DNA of 64,000 nt, taken from Methylomonas aurea. GTDB taxonomy: Bacteria > Pseudomonadota > Gammaproteobacteria > Methylococcales > Methylomonadaceae. This document shows, in pieces, positions 3,456-50,611 of the stretch. The stretch covers positions 1-64,000 of the forward strand of contig NZ_JANIBM010000020.1 of assembly GCF_024505045.1 (NCBI RefSeq), in the 5' to 3' direction. Position numbers and translations under genes: made by a program. A model generated the notes under the pieces. It made no database searches and had not been told where the DNA came from. It saw only the letters and a list, made by a program, of their open reading frames with translations. Each line of letters starts with the position of its first letter. The stretch's first letter is position 1.

Positions 3456-6389
3456 ATGTCTCGGTTACTGCACCGGTTAGCCCTTGCCACCCTTTGCGGC
3501 GGAGTGCTTTGCCCATCGGTTCGCGCCGACATCAGCACGGCGATGATACGCGGCCAAGTCCAGCTCGGCGACGGTGGCGACCAGGCCGGAACGCAGATCA
3601 TTGTGACCAACCTGCAACGCGGCTTCTCGACCCGTACCTTCCCCCGCGCCGACGGCTCTTACGTACTGATGGCGTTAAAGCCCGGACGCTACCGGCTTTC
3701 GGTGCTGGCTGCGGACGGCCGGCGGGCGGAACAGGAGCTGACGCTGCAGGTCGGCCAGACCGCCTTGCTCGACATTACGCTCGATCCGAAACCCGATACC
3801 GCCAGCGCGGCCGCCGAACCGGCCGAACAAAATTCGTCGGAACTGGCGACCTACTTGACGCCGGAGCAAATGCAACGCTTGCCGCAAGTCAACCGCAATT
3901 TCCTGAATTACGCCGACCTGGCGCCCGGAGTGAATGTCGTCAACGGCGAGGAGGGCACTACCCGCCTACAGAGCGGGGGCCAAAGGCCGGACAGCGTCAA
4001 TCTGTTCATCGACGGCGTCAGCCAGAAAAACTATGTGGTTCGTGGCGGCGTGGCTGGTCAGGATTCCAGCAAAGGCAACGTGTTCCCGGAATCGGCCGTG
4101 GCCGAATACAAGGTGATCAGCCAAAACTACAAAGCCGAATTCGATCAAGTTGCTGCCGCAGCGGTTTCGGTCCAAACCAAATCAGGCGGCAACCGGTTCC
4201 AGGGCGAAGCCTTTTACGACCACACCAACCAGGATTTGCGCTCGGCTACGCCCAGTGAACAACTCGCCGGCAAGCGCGATTCCGAGCAGGCCCAGTACGG
4301 CGTAACCTTGAGCGGTCCCATCGTCAAAGACGTCGCCCATTTCTTCATGGCCTACGAACGCAAGGTCAACGACGACTTCGCCAACGTCGCCGCCGGTGAC
4401 GGCGGGCCGCTACCGGCGGCTTACCAGCCTTTACTCGGCGCATTCAACCGGCCGTTCGAGCAGGACTTGTTTTTCGGCAAATTGGATTGGGCGCTCGGTG
4501 CCAGGCATCTGCTGGAGGCCTCGTTCAAGTTCCGCGACGAAACCGAAAGTTTGGGAATCGGCGGCATCAATGCCCGCACCTATGCGCTGGAGAAAGGCAA
4601 CAGCGAGCATCGGCTGGACTTCAAATACCAATATAGCGCCGAACATTGGGTCAACGAGGCCCGCTTCACTCACGAGGACGCCAACTGGCAGCAAACGCCT
4701 GCCGAAAACTCGCCCGGCATCTTGTTGCAGCGCCTGGACGGCAGTCTGAGCGGCAACACGCTGGCCAGCCGCTCGGTGTTGAACGCGGGCGGCAGTACCA
4801 ATTACCAAAAGAAAGGCCAGAACGGACCGGGCCTGCAAAACGATTTAACCTTCAGCGATTTGCATTGGTACGGCGAGCATATCGCCAAAGTCGGCGCCAA
4901 ACTGAAGCGGATCGAACTCAGTGCGCTGGAGCGCGACCCTTACCATCCGCAGTTCAGTTTCAACTTGAACAACCCGGCCGGCAACCCATACCGGGTGCGC
5001 TGGGCTTCGGCGCTGGCCGGTGCCGGCGACGGCAGTACCGCCAGCGATGTGACCCAATTGGGCGTTTATTTGCAGGACGATTGGCAGGTCGACAAACATC
5101 TGAGTTTGAATCTGGGTTTGCGCTGGGATTACGAATACAACCCCGGTTACTTGAATTTCGTCACGCCGGCTGACGTGGCGGGCGCTTTGCGCGGCTGGAG
5201 CAATCTGCATAACGGCAACGCCGGTTACGATATCGAAAACTTCATCAGCAACGGCGACAACCGCAGCGCCGACAGCAACAACATCGCGCCGCGCTTGGGC
5301 TTTGCCTACGATCTATTGGCCGACCAGCGTCATGTCCTATTCGGCGGTTTTGCCCGGGCCTACGATCGCAATATCTACGACGTGTTGCAACTGGAACGGA
5401 CCAAGGGCACTTACCCGAGCTACAGCGTCAATTTTCAGGGCGATCCCAACTACGATTGCGCCGCGGCAGCCGATTGCATCGCCTGGGCGCCGGAATACCT
5501 GAATTACTCGCCGGCGCAGTTGACGGCGTTGACCGGCGCCGTTCCGGGGACCAGCCGAGAAATCAACCTGATCCGCAACAACTTGAAAACGCCGTTCTCC
5601 GACCAGTTCAGCCTGGGCATGCGCAACCGGATCGGCGACTGGTTCACCGAAATCGCCTTTTCGCACGTGGTCAGCTACAACGGCGTGGTCGGGCTATTGG
5701 GCGGCCGCAATGCCGACGGCAGCTTCTATGCGCCGGGTTCGGCGTTCGGCGGTACCTTCCAGGCCTTGCCGGGCTACGGCCAACTGATTCTGTTCGATAA
5801 CGGTGTGCAGACCAAAACCAATTCGATCTTCCTGAAAGCCGAAAAGCCTTACCACCCGGACAGCGGTTGGGGCATGACCTTTGCCTATACCTTTACCGAT
5901 TCGGAAGAAAACAAACCGCAATCGTTTGCCGACAACAGCAGCTACCTGTTCGAATACCCCAATACCCATAGCGTCGGCTGGCTGGACACCGCTGGCGTGC
6001 GCAAACATAAAATCGTCGCCAGCGGCAGCGTCGATTTGCCGTGGGACCTGATTTTCTCCGCCAAACTGACCTTGGCCACGCCGGAAACTCGCTCCGGCGT
6101 CAACTGCAACGGCGGCTGCCGCTTCGATACCTTTACGCCGCGCGGCCAAGACTTTATTTTTCCCGGCAATTGGTGGGGTTACCGCCAGGTCGACGTCGCC
6201 TTGATCAAAAGTTTCGATACTCCGCACGACACGCGTATGAAACTGCGCCTGGATGTGCTGAATCTGTTCGATTTCAAAAACTACGCGGGGTTTAACTCGG
6301 ATTTCGCCTCGCCGAATTTCGGCTCGCCGCTGGGCACATTGGCCGGGCCGGGATTCACGCTTAAGCTGACCGCGCGGTTGGAGTTTTGA
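3456..6389 (+). CDS. Oar-like TonB-dependent outer-membrane receptor with N-terminal carboxypeptidase-regulatory-like domain
   Basis: 977 residues. It has a signal peptide (LALATLCGGVLCPSVRA), then a Cna-B/CarboxypepD_reg-like beta domain (about 27-115) with the YVLMALKPGRYRL signature, then a plug (about 130-265, containing DSVNLFIDG) and a long beta-barrel ending in a C-terminal Phe, the usual Bam signal. This architecture matches the Oar family of TonB-dependent transporters. No iron- or B12-specific motif is visible, so the substrate is unknown. The stop overlaps the ATG of the YfiR-like gene by one base (TGATG), implying translational coupling. A receptor between c-di-GMP and phosphorelay genes suggests the operon senses or takes up an external ligand. 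Confidence 0.85.
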   Translation: MSRLLHRLALATLCGGVLCPSVRADISTAMIRGQVQLGDGGDQAGTQIIVTNLQRGFSTRTFPRADGSYVLMALKPGRYRLSVLAADGRRAEQELTLQVGQTALLDITLDPKPDTASAAAEPAEQNSSELATYLTPEQMQRLPQVNRNFLNYADLAPGVNVVNGEEGTTRLQSGGQRPDSVNLFIDGVSQKNYVVRGGVAGQDSSKGNVFPESAVAEYKVISQNYKAEFDQVAAAAVSVQTKSGGNRFQGEAFYDHTNQDLRSATPSEQLAGKRDSEQAQYGVTLSGPIVKDVAHFFMAYERKVNDDFANVAAGDGGPLPAAYQPLLGAFNRPFEQDLFFGKLDWALGARHLLEASFKFRDETESLGIGGINARTYALEKGNSEHRLDFKYQYSAEHWVNEARFTHEDANWQQTPAENSPGILLQRLDGSLSGNTLASRSVLNAGGSTNYQKKGQNGPGLQNDLTFSDLHWYGEHIAKVGAKLKRIELSALERDPYHPQFSFNLNNPAGNPYRVRWASALAGAGDGSTASDVTQLGVYLQDDWQVDKHLSLNLGLRWDYEYNPGYLNFVTPADVAGALRGWSNLHNGNAGYDIENFISNGDNRSADSNNIAPRLGFAYDLLADQRHVLFGGFARAYDRNIYDVLQLERTKGTYPSYSVNFQGDPNYDCAAAADCIAWAPEYLNYSPAQLTALTGAVPGTSREINLIRNNLKTPFSDQFSLGMRNRIGDWFTEIAFSHVVSYNGVVGLLGGRNADGSFYAPGSAFGGTFQALPGYGQLILFDNGVQTKTNSIFLKAEKPYHPDSGWGMTFAYTFTDSEENKPQSFADNSSYLFEYPNTHSVGWLDTAGVRKHKIVASGSVDLPWDLIFSAKLTLATPETRSGVNCNGGCRFDTFTPRGQDFIFPGNWWGYRQVDVALIKSFDTPHDTRMKLRLDVLNLFDFKNYAGFNSDFASPNFGSPLGTLAGPGFTLKLTARLEF

Positions 6390-44391: not shown

Positions 44392-46299
44392 TTAAGAAGC
44401 GAGTGCGCTTCCTTGACCGATTTGACCGTCGGTGTCTCCGGAAGATTCCGGCAGATCCGCTACGGCTTCAATGTTGACTTCAGGCTCAGGTTGCGGAGGA
44501 GCAATCATGCGGCCCTGCATCAATTCGTCGATTTGGAATTTATCGATGGTCTCCCAGTCCATCAGGGCTTGCGCCATGTTGTGCAGGATCTCGATGTTTT
44601 CCTTCAGGATGTTCTCGGCGCGTTTGTAATTGCTGTCGATCACATGCCTGATTTCTTCGTCTATGGTTTGTGCCATTTTTTCCGACATCGGCTTGGCTTG
44701 CGGCCCCATGTAGCCGCCTTCGCTGTCGCCGTAGTCCATCGGACCCAGCCGCTCAGATAAGCCCCATTTTGTCACCATGTTGCGAGCCAATTGGGTGGCA
44801 CGCATGATGTCGTTGGAGGCGCCGGTGGTGACCTTGTTCTTACCGTAGATCAGCTCTTCCGCGACCCGGCCGCCGAACAAGCTGGCGATTTGGCTTTCCA
44901 ATTTGTCTTTGGAGGCACTGTACTGGTCGCGCTCCGGCAGGAACATGGTGATACCCAAAGCGCCGCCGCGCGGCATGATGCTGACCTTATAAACCGGGTC
45001 GTGCTCCGGCACCTTGCGGCCGACGATGGCGTGTCCGGCTTCGTGGTAGGCGGTCATCAACAGATCTTCTTTGGACATGATCATCGTGCGTTTTTCGGCG
45101 CCCATGATCATTTTGTCGCGAGCTTTGTCCAGGTCGTTCATGGTCACGACTTTCTTGTTATTGCGTGCCGCGAACAAGGCGCCTTCGTTGATCAGATTCG
45201 CCAGTTCGGCGCCGGAGAAACCTGGCGTGCCGCGGGCCAAATCGTTCAAATTGACGTCTTCGGCCAAAGGCACCCGGTCGCCGTGTACTTTCAGGATTTG
45301 CTCGCGGCCTTTAATGTCGGGTAGGCCGACTTGCACTTGGCGGTCGAAACGGCCAGGTCTTAGTAAAGCTTTATCCAAAATGTCGGAGCGGTTGGTGGCG
45401 GCGATGACAATGATGCCTTCGCTGCCGCTGAAGCCGTCCATTTCCACCAGCAACTGGTTCAAAGTTTGTTCGCGTTCCTCGTTGCCGCCGCCCATGCCGG
45501 CGCCGCCGCGTTGGCGGCCGACTGCGTCGATCTCGTCGATGAAGATGATGCAAGGCGCTCGTTTTTTGGCTTCGGTGAACATGTCCCGTACCCTTGCAGC
45601 ACCGACGCCGACGAACATTTCCACGAAATCGGAACCGGAGATCGAGAAGAACGGTACGCCTGCCTCGCCGGCGATCGCTTTGGCTAGCAGGGTTTTACCG
45701 GTACCCGGAGGGCCGACCATCAATACGCCGCGCGGGATTTTGCCGCCCAGAGCTTCGTATTTGCCGGGATCGCGCAGGAAGTCCACCATCTCCACCACGT
45801 CGTGCTTGGCTTCTTCGCAGCCGGCGACGTCTTTGAAGCGGATTTTGATCTGGTCCTCGGCCATCAATTTGGCCCGGCTCTTACCGAAACCCATCTGGCC
45901 GTCGCGGCCGCCCATGGCCGCGGCCTGCTTACGCATGAAGTAGACCAGCACGGCGATCAGTAGCAGGGTAGGAGCCCAAGAGATGAAAATTTGCATCAGC
46001 GTCGACGGCTGTTGCGGTTTTTCCACCTTGATTTTTACGCCGTATTCCAGCAACTCGTCGATCATGCGCGAGTCGTTGGGATTGTAGGTCGAGAAACGGG
46101 TGCCGTTCGGCCGGCGGCCGTCGACGTAATTGCCGTCGATCACGACTTCTTCCACCGCCTTGTTGCGCACGTCTTCGATAAAGTCCGAGTACGAGATTTC
46201 GTAGTGCGGGTCGTATTGCGGCATGCTGCGGTTGAAGATGGCCGACACGATCAAGGCGACCGCCGCGAAAATCGTCAGAACAATGAAATACTTTTTCAT
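44392..46299 (-). CDS. ftsH: ATP-dependent zinc metalloprotease FtsH
   Basis: 635 residues. An N-terminal membrane helix, a periplasmic domain (about 27-105) and a second helix (about 107-122) come first. The AAA+ domain has Walker A GPPGTGKT, Walker [12 protein letters not shown] and the second region of homology (RPGRFDRQ). The peptidase M41 zinc site is HEAGH starting at H419. It degrades membrane and some soluble proteins at the inner membrane. It follows hflK and hflC, its prohibitin-like regulators, by 15 bp in one operon, and ends in a clear terminator. This may be a second ftsH copy, since hflKC and ftsH are more often separate; the window cannot show that. Confidence 0.97.
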
Positions 46300-46314
46300 G
46301 ATTTTGCTCCGGCC

Positions 46315-47178
46315 TTATTTCTCGCTGGAGAAATATTTGAAGAAGTCCGAATTCGGTTTCAACACCAGGGTGTCCTGAGTTTTTTCGAACGAGGTTTGGT
46401 AAGCCTGCAAGCTGCGGTAAAAGGCATAAAACTCGGGATTTTTGCCGAAGCTTTTCGCATAGATCTCGGCCGACTGCGCATCGCCCCGACCGCGGATATT
46501 TTCGGCATCGCGCTGGGCGTTGGCGACGATCACGTGTTTCTGTTTATCGGCCTCGGCGCTGATCTGCTCGGCGCTTTCCGCACCTTGCGAGCGGAATTCG
46601 CGGGCAACGCGTTCCCGCTCGGCGCGCATGCGCTGAAATACCGAGCTACTGACTTCCTGCGGCAGGTCGATGCGTTTGATGCGGATATCGATCAGCTCGA
46701 TGCCGAATTTCTGGGCGGTCGGCGACAGCTTGGCCAACAGCGTTTCGCGCAGTTCGCTACGGTCTTCCGAGATCAGTTGCTTAATGGTGCGCACGCCGAA
46801 TTCGCTGCGCATCGCGTCTTTCATGATTTGGTCGAGGCGTAAATTGGCCTGGAATTCGTCGCCGCCGACCGTGGTGTAAAAGAGGCCCACATCACCTATC
46901 CGCCATTTGGCGAACGAATCGACAATAACGTTCTTCTTTTCGGAGGTAAGAAAACGCTCGGACTTGGCGTCCAAGGTCAGCACGCGCGCATCAAACGTAC
47001 TGACATTATTGATGAGGGGGGCCTTAAAATGGAGTCCGGGCTTGTAGTCGGATTCGACCATTTCGCCGAGACGAAACAGGATGGCTTTCTCGTGTTCTTT
47101 GACGTAAAAAACCGACATGTAACCGAGTACCAACAGGGACAAACCGGCTGGAATCAAAATTTGGGTTTTGCTGTTCAT
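46315..47178 (-). CDS. hflC: HflC, SPFH-family FtsH modulator
   Basis: 287 residues. A single N-terminal membrane helix (ILIPAGLSLLVLGYMSVFYV) is followed by an SPFH/band-7 domain (about 25-190) and a coiled coil rich in Ala, Glu and Arg (RERVAREFRSQGAESAEQI, cut to its motif). HflC and HflK form a cage around FtsH in the periplasm. The start overlaps the hflK stop by 4 bp. Confidence 0.95.
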   Translation of the reverse strand: MNSKTQILIPAGLSLLVLGYMSVFYVKEHEKAILFRLGEMVESDYKPGLHFKAPLINNVSTFDARVLTLDAKSERFLTSEKKNVIVDSFAKWRIGDVGLFYTTVGGDEFQANLRLDQIMKDAMRSEFGVRTIKQLISEDRSELRETLLAKLSPTAQKFGIELIDIRIKRIDLPQEVSSSVFQRMRAERERVAREFRSQGAESAEQISAEADKQKHVIVANAQRDAENIRGRGDAQSAEIYAKSFGKNPEFYAFYRSLQAYQTSFEKTQDTLVLKPNSDFFKYFSSEK

Positions 47179-48338
47179 TGTTTGCTCCTGCTTGGGCGTA
47201 ATTCGTTGCCGGAGGTTTTACGCATGCCGTTCTTGTCGGCGGTGTGCGGTTCGCTTACCGGTTCCGCTTCGTTACTGCCGACCGGGTTGGCGCCATGTTG
47301 CTGCAACGTCTGCGGCATCGGCATGTACAGCATCGGATTGGTTTGGTCCGCTTCCAGCATTACCTTGTTGGTGCTGCTATACAATTTTTCCTTGGCTTCC
47401 AGGTACAGGCGTTTGCGGGTGATAGCCGGGCTCTTCTCGTATTCCACCAGCAGTTGGTCGAAGCGCTCGGTTTCGCCTTTGGCTTTGGCGATTTTTTCGG
47501 CTTCGTAGGCTTCGGCTTCCTGGATGATCCGGGAGGCGGCGCCGCGGGCTTTCGGAATCACTTCGTTGGCGTAGGCTTCGGCTTCATTGATCAGGCGTTG
47601 TTTATCCTCGCGGGCACGAATCGCATCCTCGAATGCGCCTTGCACTTCCTCCGGCGGCTGAGCATCCTGCAGGTTGACGCTGGCGATGCTGATACCGGTT
47701 TTATATTCGTCCATGCCGGCCTGGATCTGCTCCTTGATTTCGGCGACGATCTGGCTACGGCCCTCGGTTAACACAAAGTCCATGTTATTGCGGCCGATCA
47801 CAGCGCGTTCGACGCTTTCGGTCAGTTGTTTCAACGTGTTTTCGTTGTTTTTCACGTTGAACAGATAGTCCCTGGCGTTATTGATTTGGTACTGTACGGC
47901 CAGCCGCACCGCGATGATGTTTTCGTCGGCGGTCAACATTAACGATTCTTGCGGAATCATCGACGATTTGTTGACGCGGCTACTGTCTGTGTAACCCACT
48001 TCGATGAAACGTTGTTGCTCGACGTTGACGATGGCGACGTTCTCAAACGGCACCGGAATGTGCCAGTTCGGGCCCGGCATCGTGGTTTCCGAGTAGGCGC
48101 CGAAGCGGGTTACCACGCCGCGGTTGCCCTGGTCGACGATATAAAAACCGCTGGCGAGCCACACGACCGCGAGGGTGCCGCCCACGGCAGACGCCACCTT
48201 ACCGGCGGAAAACATGCTTTTGTGGCCGTTAAAAAAATCGCCGGTCTTTTCCGATACCTGCTTCCAATACTTGTCTATCTCCAGCCTCCAATCGGGCTGC
48301 GGCGTCTGCTTACTGGTGTTGTGTTTTTCTGATGACAT
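47175..48338 (-). CDS. hflK: HflK, SPFH-family FtsH modulator
   Basis: 387 residues. A cytoplasmic N-terminus is followed by one membrane helix (about 50-70), the SPFH domain with GVVTRFGAYSETTMPGPNWH, and a coiled coil ending in a Gln/Pro-rich tail. The ATG at 48338 is used because AGGAG lies 5 bp upstream; a GTG six bases earlier would overlap that site. It heads the hflK-hflC-ftsH operon. Confidence 0.95.
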   Translation of the reverse strand: MSSEKHNTSKQTPQPDWRLEIDKYWKQVSEKTGDFFNGHKSMFSAGKVASAVGGTLAVVWLASGFYIVDQGNRGVVTRFGAYSETTMPGPNWHIPVPFENVAIVNVEQQRFIEVGYTDSSRVNKSSMIPQESLMLTADENIIAVRLAVQYQINNARDYLFNVKNNENTLKQLTESVERAVIGRNNMDFVLTEGRSQIVAEIKEQIQAGMDEYKTGISIASVNLQDAQPPEEVQGAFEDAIRAREDKQRLINEAEAYANEVIPKARGAASRIIQEAEAYEAEKIAKAKGETERFDQLLVEYEKSPAITRKRLYLEAKEKLYSSTNKVMLEADQTNPMLYMPMPQTLQQHGANPVGSNEAEPVSEPHTADKNGMRKTSGNELRPSRSKQ

Positions 48339-48388: not shown

Positions 48389-49618
48389 TTAGCCGTCCTT
48401 GGGTTCGAGAAATAGCATAAGGTCAAAGCCGAACTGTTGTTTCAATTTTTTTAACGCCTCGTTCTGGATTTGCCGGACTCGTTCCCGAGTAACATGCAGT
48501 TGGTCGGCAACGGCTTGCAGGGTCATTTCCGTATGGTCGCGCAAGCCGAAGCGCATCGTCAGAATCGCTGCCTGTTTTTCCGGTAACGATGCCACCGCTT
48601 TGTCGACGTATTGAGCTAGATCGTTGTCGATTAGTTCATCGAGCGGCAGACTGAACTGGTGCTGTTGCATTTTCGCCATCAGATCCAGCCCGTCGTCTTC
48701 GTCGCCGATAGTGGCGTCCAGGGAGTGTGTCGATTGGTAGTAACTGCTGATGGTTTTGATCTCTTGTTCGGTCAGATCGCAGCAGGCTTTCAATTCCGCA
48801 ACGCTGGGCCAGCGCTCGGTTTTCAGGTAGCAAATACGCATGGCCTCGAACACTACCGAGGCTTTTTCCGCCAGAGCAACTGGTAAGCGCACGATTTTTT
48901 CCTGTTTGACGATCAGGCGGGATATGGCCTGTTTGATCCAGTAAATGGCGTAGGTCGAAAAGCAGATGCCGCGCTCGGCATCGAATCGGTCCACCGCCTT
49001 TATTAAACCTACCAAGCCTTCCTGCATCAGGTCGTCGAAGCTCAGGTTATTGGTTTTGTACTTATGTGCCACAAATGCAACCAATCCGGTGTTGGCCGAA
49101 ATGGTCTGTTGGCGGATGTTCTTCAATTCCCGAAGCGCCGCCTTCAGTTCGGCTTTGTAGTCGTCTAGGTTGGCTGTTTCGGCCGGCAGGCTTTTCACGA
49201 TTTCGCCGGCGGTATCCATCAGGAATACCGGCAGCAAATGCAGGCTGTACAACAACTGGTTTACCGTGCGCCGGTGCGGGTCCAAAAGCTGTACAATGTT
49301 TTGCGCTTGTACAACTTCATCCGCCACTTCTCCAGGCAGCAACGGAACGTGTACAGCGATTTCCTGCTTGTACAACAATTCGATCAGGCGTTTGGCTTCG
49401 TCCGAGTTTTTGGCGATCATCAGCTCGGAACAATCGATGCCGCGCTGCAGTTCGTTCAACAAACGCTTGGCAACCAACGGGCTAACTTGCTGATTATCAA
49501 GCAATAACTGGTTAAGGCGGCTGCGGGCCTGCTCCATGCGCACGCTCAATGTGGCGGGCTCGGCATCCACGATAGTAACTGTCTCGCTAGCAAAGGATAG
49601 TGCGGCTGTATTAGACAT
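48389..49618 (-). CDS. sigma-70 family RNA polymerase sigma factor (group 2/3)
   Basis: 409 residues. The C-terminal two thirds carry region 2 (LMQEGLVGLIKAVDRFDAERG followed by FSTYAIYWIKQAISR, given only in part), region 3 (PVALAEKASVVFEAM) and region 4 with a helix-turn-helix (TLQAVADQLHVTRERVRQIQ). The N-terminal 150 residues are unlike RpoD or RpoS, and RpoD's long non-conserved region is absent, so this is an alternative sigma factor. It is divergent from the CarH/LitR-like regulator across 90 bp, an arrangement known for light-controlled sigma factors. A TTGACA with a 17-bp spacer to TAACGT lies upstream. Its coding sequence holds an unusual cluster of TGTACA palindromes. Confidence 0.9.
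   Translation of the reverse strand: MSNTAALSFASETVTIVDAEPATLSVRMEQARSRLNQLLLDNQQVSPLVAKRLLNELQRGIDCSELMIAKNSDEAKRLIELLYKQEIAVHVPLLPGEVADEVVQAQNIVQLLDPHRRTVNQLLYSLHLLPVFLMDTAGEIVKSLPAETANLDDYKAELKAALRELKNIRQQTISANTGLVAFVAHKYKTNNLSFDDLMQEGLVGLIKAVDRFDAERGICFSTYAIYWIKQAISRLIVKQEKIVRLPVALAEKASVVFEAMRICYLKTERWPSVAELKACCDLTEQEIKTISSYYQSTHSLDATIGDEDDGLDLMAKMQQHQFSLPLDELIDNDLAQYVDKAVASLPEKQAAILTMRFGLRDHTEMTLQAVADQLHVTRERVRQIQNEALKKLKQQFGFDLMLFLEPKDG
49246..49374. promoter_or_regulatory. intragenic cluster of five TGTACA palindromes (candidate CarH/LitR operators)
   Basis: Within the sigma-factor coding sequence TGTACA occurs at 49246-49251, 49290-49295, 49308-49313, 49350-49355 and 49369-49374. The second and third copies form TGTACA-N12-TGTACA exactly; the fourth and fifth form TGTACA-N13-TGTACA. 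The same type of box lies over the neighbouring merR start. In the protein they encode Val-Gln, Val-His and Leu-Tyr pairs. The count is direct; the regulatory role is inferred. Confidence 0.5.
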
Positions 49619-49676
49619 GATCTTTTCGCTCTTCGAATAAGTTGTTGGCAATTACGTTACTAGATTGTAGAATGTT

Positions 49677-49715
49677 TGTCAAAATAAAATATGTACAAAA
49701 CGTGAACAATGTACT
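49677..49715. promoter_or_regulatory. divergent promoter and TGTACA-type operator between sigma factor and CarH-like gene
   Basis: TGTACA (49692-49697) and TGTACT (49710-49715) are separated by exactly 12 bp. The right half overlaps the merR start codon at 49709. On the minus strand a TTGACA (-35) sits at 49677-49682, with TAACGT 17 bp downstream, directed at the sigma factor gene. The arrangement fits repression of both genes by the regulator. It agrees with the LitR-type box T(G/A)TACA-N12-TGTA(C/T)A except for the last base. Confidence 0.65.
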
Positions 49716-50611
49716 CAATTAAAGCCATTACATCGTTAACGGGTTTGACACCGGAAACGTTAAGAGCCTGGGAACGCCGTTACGCCTGCGTGACGCCGGC
49801 GCGTAACGACACCGGCAGGCGTTTCTATTCGCAGCAGGATCTGGACAAATTGACGCTGCTGGTCAACTTAACCGGGCAGGGGCACTCGATCGGCAAGTTG
49901 GCCGGCTTGAGTTGGCAGCAACTCAACGAACTGCAAAACCAATCTGCTGCACAGCAACGGCCCGAACCGGCGCCGTTTCTGGAGCAAATCGCCGATGCTC
50001 TGCGCGAGTACCGCATCGAACGTTGCGAGCAGTTGTTGAAGAAGGCGCTGTTGGTCAACGAGCCGTTGGACTATGCCCGCGACGTTTTGTTGCCGGCGAT
50101 GCAGAAAGTGGGGAATTTATGGCACCAAGGCAAAATCAATATTGCCCAGGAGCATATGTTCTCGTCTTGCGTGAAACGTATCGTGCTGAGTATGGTGAAC
50201 AACTTGCACCGCCATTCGCGCAACAATCCGGCCATCATGCTGGCAACTCCCAGCGGCGAGCCGCACGAATTCGGTATTTTGGTCAGTTGTTTGGTCGCTG
50301 CGGCGCAGAACTACAATTGTTATTACCTAGGCGCCGATTTGCCGGCGGAAGACATACTCGAAGCAGCGCGTCACTTGGCGCCTGATTTGTTGGTGATCGG
50401 GATGGTGAAAACTCCGCCGGAAACGGTCACCGTCGAGCATCTGCATCGGTTGCTGGAGGGGGCCCAGCAGAATGATTTGCAGGTGTGGCTGGGCGGCGCC
50501 GGGGCTTTGTATTTAAAGGGTGACGGCGACGCGTTGATCGGCACTGTCGAGGTCGTTGTCGATATCGACCAGTTCAATGCCAAAATCCGGCAGCAAAGGA
50601 TTTCGCACTGA
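49709..50611 (+). CDS. CarH/LitR-type MerR-family regulator with B12-binding photosensory domain
   Basis: 300 residues. An N-terminal MerR winged HTH (AITSLTGLTPETLRAWERRY) is followed by a helical cobalamin-capping domain with the W-x9-EH signature (W138, E148-H149) and a C-terminal cobalamin-binding Rossmann domain with E184-x-H186-x-x-G189 (the axial-ligand motif) and YYLGADLPAEDIL. Both signatures of AdoCbl-dependent CarH/LitR photoreceptors are intact, so it should repress in the dark and release DNA in light. It is divergent from the sigma factor and its putative operator overlaps its own ATG, implying autoregulation. Confidence 0.93.
   Translation: MYSIKAITSLTGLTPETLRAWERRYACVTPARNDTGRRFYSQQDLDKLTLLVNLTGQGHSIGKLAGLSWQQLNELQNQSAAQQRPEPAPFLEQIADALREYRIERCEQLLKKALLVNEPLDYARDVLLPAMQKVGNLWHQGKINIAQEHMFSSCVKRIVLSMVNNLHRHSRNNPAIMLATPSGEPHEFGILVSCLVAAAQNYNCYYLGADLPAEDILEAARHLAPDLLVIGMVKTPPETVTVEHLHRLLEGAQQNDLQVWLGGAGALYLKGDGDALIGTVEVVVDIDQFNAKIRQQRISH

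Follow-up and report, generated by a model that had tools for sequence, protein, structure and literature searches.

The window analysed here, the whole stretch of 64,000 nucleotides from Methylomonas aurea, holds a gene for a sigma factor of the sigma-70 family and, divergent from it at a distance of about 90 bp, a gene of the CarH/LitR type (litR); three further genes follow behind the sigma gene on its strand (Table 1). Both Sigma70_r2 (8.8e-17) and Sigma70_r4 (6.9e-16) are found above the Pfam cut-off in the sigma gene product, and Sigma70_r3 is marginal (25.1 bits against a cut-off of 25.3); the protein is an RpoD/RpoS-like sigma factor, not an ECF factor. The litR product is above the Pfam cut-off for MerR_1, B12-binding_2 and B12-binding, and its residues 2-266 match the PDB entry 5c8d of CarH with an E value of 4.1e-26. 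The signature W138-x9-E148H149 together with H186 is present in all 63 of 63 litR homologues. In the LitR product we take the W-x9-EH residues to lie over the adenosyl group and the histidine to be the axial ligand. By its domains and these residues, the litR product is a candidate photoreceptor regulator of the AdoCbl type. Its sequence makes it a relative of CarH; the NCBIfam CarH equivalog cut-off is missed (123.9 bits vs 400), and equivalog status is not claimed.

Table 1. Genes and predicted sites around the sigma-litR gene pair (positions in the window).
Feature	Positions	Strand	Basis or remark
ftsH-like AAA+/M41 protease gene	44392..46299	-	Pfam
hflC-like gene (Band_7)	46315..47178	-	Pfam Band_7
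hflK-like gene (Band_7), next after the sigma gene	47175..48338	-	Pfam Band_7
sigma-70 family sigma factor gene, 409 aa	48389..49618	-	Pfam; hosts the intragenic candidate operator
Single TGTACA, codons Leu-Tyr-Ser	49246..49251		codon probability 0.26
Candidate intragenic LitR box TGTACA-N12-TGTACA, reads V-Q-x4-V-Q in sigma	49290..49313		sequence and conservation
N13-spaced TGTACA pair, probably auxiliary	49350..49374		alignment and codon test
Predicted litR promoter TTGGCA-N17-TAGAAT	49645..49673	+	intergenic alignment and score; inferred start site ~49680
Predicted sigma promoter TTGACA-N17-TAACGT	49654..49682	-	intergenic alignment and score; inferred start site ~49647
Operator-like site TGTACA-N12-TGTACT at the litR start; also two 11-bp-spaced TnnACA repeats (49692, 49703)	49692..49715
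CarH/LitR regulator gene (litR), 300 aa, MerR HTH and B12-binding	49709..50611	+	Pfam, PDB match

The distance from the sigma stop codon to the start of the hflK match, obtained with a query that started one codon ahead of the ATG, is 36-140 bp in 21 of 23 loci; in the other two (L048 and L052) the hflK search gave no match. From this spacing and the gene order we infer that sigma, hflK, hflC and ftsH form one operon. The ftsH gene is not the sole copy, since the genome of the window has four M41 protease genes, one of which sits behind the sigma gene. The hflK-hflC-ftsH cluster occupies 44392-48338 of the window, and the observation on the M41 proteases also covers contigs C8, C24 and C28 of genome G000. 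The cluster may be a light-response set.

The hexamer TGTACA occurs 12 times in the window against 4.17 expected, a count reached in none of 100 shuffles. The initial annotation placed five of them in the sigma gene (49246, 49290, 49308, 49350 and 49369), with one pair spaced as N12 (49290/49308) and another as N13 (49350/49369), and reported a similar box at the start of the regulator gene; all of these positions and spacings are correct, the last box being the TGTACA-N12-TGTACT at 49692-49715. When the sigma protein was held fixed and its codons were drawn from those of six neighbouring genes, 20,000 draws gave a mean of 0.95 TGTACA per sigma gene; five were reached in 0 of the 20,000, and an N12-spaced pair arose in 9. 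The five are not alike in this respect. Codon usage gives TGTACA a probability of about 0.61 at 49369 (Leu-Tyr-Lys) and about 0.26 at 49246 (Leu-Tyr-Ser), and these two are largely expected from common codons; the one at 49246 is probably codon-driven: 14 of L001-L015 have it, and LLY is retained in every one of these 15 loci. The boxes at 49290, 49308 and 49350 require the rarer valine codon GTA, and from codon usage TGTACA is improbable there. In an alignment of 38 sequences the N13 pair is confined to four close genomes (L001-L004), and its 49350 box retains GTA while the residues vary (A-V-H, V-V-Q, L-V-Q; codon probability of each at most 0.014), a pattern that probably marks a clade-specific auxiliary site. 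The proposal of an array of five sites is not supported as it stands: the N12 pair alone extends across the family, the N13 pair belongs to four genomes, and 49246 and 49369 are largely explained by codons; as a proposal of an intragenic operator at the N12 pair, it is upheld by the sequence evidence.

The perfect TGTACA-N12-TGTACA at 49290-49313 is the only one in the genome of 4,808,750 bases, and it is also the sole genome-wide match to the looser Pseudomonas putida consensus TRTACA-N12-TGTAYA; the four further N12 pairs with one mismatch in this genome all overlap open frames. PmlR2, a LitR family protein of Pseudomonas mendocina, is described as footprinting on TGTACA-N12-TGTACA, and the consensus given for PplR1 of P. 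putida is T(G/A)TACA-N12-TGTA(C/T)A (PMC9758184). The sequence at 49290-49313 is identical to the one footprinted with PmlR2 and conforms to the PplR1 consensus. Unlike LitR boxes of the PplR1/PmlR2 type, however, it is not at or just after a promoter but within the sigma coding sequence, and across the family the box lies about 100 codons into that sequence (70-160 across genera).

Within the genus, 32 of 37 genomes have a perfect N12 pair, one apiece, and the pattern read in reverse occurs once each in 2 of the 37. The pair is in the sigma gene, 418-452 bp before litR, in 31 of these 32; in G034 it sits on a different contig from the litR-linked sigma gene. A survey of 237 genomes of the family found litR (E <= 1e-40) in 62, of which 61 also have a sigma match at E <= 1e-50, and extension to 311 genomes of the order added a single genome with litR, G256. 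The sigma gene stands divergent beside litR in 61 of 63 litR loci of the family, L084 and L109 being the exceptions. Fourteen weaker sigma-like matches in the family (e.g. in G171, G176 and G180) carry one in-frame stop, probably because the match overruns the gene end, mostly reaching residue 405. Among 60 litR-linked sigma frames longer than 370 aa, which are related sequences and hence not independent, the N12 pair is exact in 50, has one mismatch in 7, two in 2 and four in 1, so that 57 have at most one mismatch and 59 at most two; the box is also exact in the sigma gene of L082, which is truncated by a contig end and stands outside the 60. Exact boxes occur in six genera (g1, g9, g11, g15, g17 and g22), the remotest of which have sigma proteins 38-41% identical to that of the window, and the six loci of g19 have boxes with one or two mismatches. 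Loss of the palindromes at synonymous positions in relatives, the outcome that the initial annotation had set against its own proposal, was looked for and the opposite was found: the N12 pair is kept.

The codons at the box bear on what is being conserved. Of 110 valines at the boxes, 109 are encoded by GTA, whereas in the remainder of these genes GTA accounts for 194 of 1341 (14%). The codon ahead of a box ends in T in 118 of 120 cases, although seven different residues (V, F, I, P, L, A, S) occur there; these counts, too, come from related sequences and are not independent. The pair was placed by the best in-frame match, a procedure that favours GTA; a frame-independent search hit the same places, and the alignment of 38 sequences shows them as aligned columns, with V-Q-x4-V-Q constant and the flanking linker highly variable. 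By this codon choice, selection at the N12 pair acts on DNA. A misassigned sigma start, with the box lying upstream of the true gene, was rejected because substitutions in the N-terminal part follow a coding pattern (dN/dS of 0.04-0.39 in 17 of 18 pairs, one pair being saturated) and because 60 of 61 loci have the first ATG of the frame 75-141 bp from litR; for L079 the most upstream ATG was taken as the start and is probably not the true one.

Comparison of the intergenic region in 63 loci yielded two divergent predicted promoters that overlap, and relative to the inferred sigma transcript the intragenic box lies at about +334 to +357. The operator-like site at the litR start follows the inferred litR start site directly and lies upstream of the sigma -35 element, from which its end is separated by about 10 bp. 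A TnnACA pair at 11-bp spacing is found by the litR start in 45 of 63 litR loci; the intragenic box is arranged otherwise. In L092 and L093 the segment from -39 to -1 of litR holds four tandem 11-bp TnnACA repeats, like the four-repeat CarH operators. Promoters and distances were compared in 35 representative loci, all chosen for an exact N12 pair; their full information content at the 12 box positions is therefore built in by the selection and not counted as evidence, for which the counts over the 60 sigma frames serve. The intergenic sigma promoter scored 9.6-12.5 in 34 of the 35 with an approximate sigma-70-like matrix; L079, with its misassigned start, scored 1.4. The distance between the two operator-like sites in these loci is 399-435 bp in the genus, 308-335 bp in g11, 324-325 bp in g15 and 571-610 bp in g9, g17 and g22, and no helical phasing between them was found (R at most 0.23, n = 35 related loci).

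Some loci separate the sigma gene from litR, or the box from the sigma protein. The box is kept at none of six loci (L126-L129, L130 and L118) where the sigma copy is not linked to litR; the six represent about three lineages, since L126-L129 share one state, TGTTCA-N12-TGTAAA, which encodes IVQNNDLVK or IVQHNDFVK. L118 belongs to G028, a genome with no litR at 1e-40. L126-L129 and L046 are second sigma copies without an adjoining litR and with decayed boxes; L046, where an hflK-hflC pair of its own follows the sigma copy, is apparently one locus with L127 (the two are identical at the site, and their contigs have the same length) and was left out of the unlinked count. In G132 (L109, L111) sigma regions 2-4 are gone and an exact box is kept in a short open frame, between a conserved promoter, TTGACA-N17-TAAATT, and hflK, with hflC-ftsH behind. 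This apparent natural deletion, which parts the operator from the sigma protein, is located at 4078-4512 of L111, with the box at 4253. A search of G132 for a litR-type sigma gene elsewhere found none, the best match being 5e-39. The deletion could be an assembly fault, as the genome is a draft of 380 contigs with 5% contamination; if it is not, the box would serve transcription beyond it, or that of litR, and not the sigma protein. Three cases count against an operator: G034, where the litR-linked sigma gene is present and its box is ruined by four mismatches; G013, whose box has two mismatches; and G256, from another family, where the litR-sigma gene pair lacks the box. G034 (contigs C34, C67 and C87:60826-60849) has two litR genes, the damaged intragenic box and, on a third contig, its one perfect LitR box.

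Taken together, we consider it probable that a CarH/LitR operator within the sigma gene blocks transcription of sigma-hflK-hflC-ftsH in the dark, perhaps with the help of a loop. In the dark, the AdoCbl-bound regulator would occupy the intragenic box and the litR-start operator, and RNA polymerase that had left the sigma promoter would be halted by the bound regulator, keeping sigma and hflK-hflC-ftsH low; a regulator bridging both sites would form a loop of about 400 bp and strengthen the block. Light would break the Co-C bond, upon which the regulator would release the DNA and the operon would be transcribed. Binding at the box, repression in the dark, release by light and the direction of control are all steps that we infer, and the sign of control may differ, because in Streptomyces LitR is said to be an activator of litS (PMC12705666). 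Placing the block within the gene would be sensible, since the litR-start operator stops short of the sigma -35 element and alone would not cover the sigma promoter, whereas it stands right after the inferred start site of litR itself. A transcription roadblock at the box, alone or with a loop, is the possibility that we favour, on three grounds: the distance of the box downstream of the promoter that the litR-start operator leaves uncovered, the lack of any outstanding promoter signal around it in the 35 loci, and its retention ahead of hflK in G132. The majority of proteins that bind DNA are said not to act as strong roadblocks (PMC10310618); blocks placed downstream of a start site have precedents in PurR, GalR and LacI (PMC10310618, PMC4132739), and LacI loops at 400 bp are reported to block elongation almost fully (PMC5477534). 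For the present loci the case for looping goes no further than geometry, since the distance ranges over 308-610 bp and shows no helical phasing. The full scheme, in which a dark CarH/LitR oligomer on the in-gene operator is bridged to the litR-start operator and released by light, so that a B12 photoreceptor gates elongation, is one that we put forward tentatively.

The box could instead be only the distal anchor of a loop to the litR-start operator, by which initiation at the overlapping promoters, possibly that of litR, is regulated. The lac O1-O2 and gal OE-OI pairs are precedents for control of initiation by a loop. The presence in the 35 loci of two operator-like sites 308-610 bp apart, with the overlapping promoters between them, is what such a loop would look like; G132 retains the box without the sigma domains, and CarH tetramers supply several DNA-binding domains (PMC9304148). 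We nevertheless regard it as rather unlikely, given a distance that differs two-fold between genera without helical phasing and the description of known CarH tetramers as placing their domains on a single tandem-repeat operator (PMC9304148). There is still less to recommend the option, offered in the initial annotation, that the box controls a promoter inside the gene from which a truncated sigma factor or antisense RNA would be made. TTGTAC does look like a -35 element, and some single loci score up to 10.8 within the gene, as high as intergenic promoters; however, over the 35 loci the best sigma-70-like score at the box is at the level of shuffled sequence (mean z -0.16 sense and 0.32 antisense, with 30 shuffles per locus preserving base composition only), while the intergenic sigma promoter scores 9.6-12.5 in 34 of the 35. 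The sequence on both sides of the box is variable and no conserved internal start codon was seen in the 38-sequence alignment. For sigma-70-like promoters the option finds no support, and we think it improbable.

That V-Q-x4-V-Q is kept for the sake of the sigma protein, the DNA palindromes being a by-product, would agree with G013, which keeps PVQDRHIVQ despite its damaged boxes, and with the unlinked copies that keep IVQNNDLVK with TGTTCA and TGTAAA. Against it stand the extreme choice of GTA and of the preceding T, the freedom of the surrounding linker to vary, the six g19 loci that have alanine (GCA) for the second valine and still keep a near-box, and the use of GTT in the unlinked L126-L129. 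Protein constraint as the sole cause was rejected on the codon choice at the boxes, and we give it very little credence. Least credible is a hairpin in the sigma mRNA, for although UUGUACAA-N10-UUGUACAA could make an 8-bp stem, we rejected it as all nine of nine variant loci break the stem pair with one or two mismatches and none compensates, the spacing of 12 is invariant among the 50 exact loci, and a similar sequence recurs at the litR start as a putative DNA operator.

Should the elongation block prove correct, we would know of no earlier roadblock gated by light, and it would offer a compact case, open to experiment, of elongation controlled by a photoreceptor. The CarH/LitR family, so far investigated for its blocking of promoters, would then also act through an operator inside a gene, and that operator, kept at the synonymous level in exact form in six genera and nearly so in a seventh, would have shaped its host protein through V-Q-x4-V-Q. 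It would also link light to a sigma factor and to membrane-protease genes in methanotrophs. Because the box is unique in the genome, the prediction is sharp: one site, one operon.

Operators inside genes are not new. The PurR site of purB lies within the coding sequence, and lac O2 lies in lacZ. The statement in the initial annotation that it knew of no description of such an intragenic operator array stands for CarH/LitR, as far as PMC searches reach; operators and roadblocks downstream of start sites in general have long been known, PurR, GalR and LacI being examples. Among the matches listed in a search of the PMC literature, which mostly leaves subscription papers outside its scope, excerpts describe no CarH/LitR operator within a coding sequence, and those from one set of papers make no mention of Methylomonas. 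The closest operators in sequence are those of PplR1 and PmlR2 of Pseudomonas, which share the motif and the N12 spacing with the intragenic box; of the two sites reported for PmlR2, one is at a -35 region and the other falls between a start site and a start codon (PMC9758184), whereas the box lies within coding sequence. In Thermus, Bacillus megaterium and myxobacteria, CarH operators have 11-bp TnnACA repeats, and those described overlap -35 or -10 elements (PMC9304148); TnnACA at this spacing also occurs at the litR-start site in 45 of 63 loci, while the intragenic box is a pair of palindromes at N12 without an 11-bp tandem. Control of a sigma gene by a CarH/LitR-type regulator used with it is known from LitR-LitS of Streptomyces, but LitS is an ECF sigma factor and LitR is described as its activator (PMC12705666), while here the sigma factor is RpoD/RpoS-like and repression within the gene is proposed. 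For the geometry, the nearest parallel is lac O1-O2, with a second operator about 400 bp downstream and loops that strengthen roadblocks (PMC5477534); the distance here varies between genera from 308 to 610 bp, without phasing, and looping by CarH/LitR is hypothetical. In mechanism, the proposed block resembles that of PurR at E. coli purB and of GalR, where a repressor downstream of the start site stops the elongating polymerase (PMC10310618, PMC4132739). The box fits the layout of such an intragenic roadblock operator of the PurR-purB type, a conserved repressor-type site in coding sequence downstream of the start; PurR and GalR sense metabolites, whereas the protein here is a candidate light-sensing B12 protein, and its putative operator lies in a sigma gene that heads a presumed operon.
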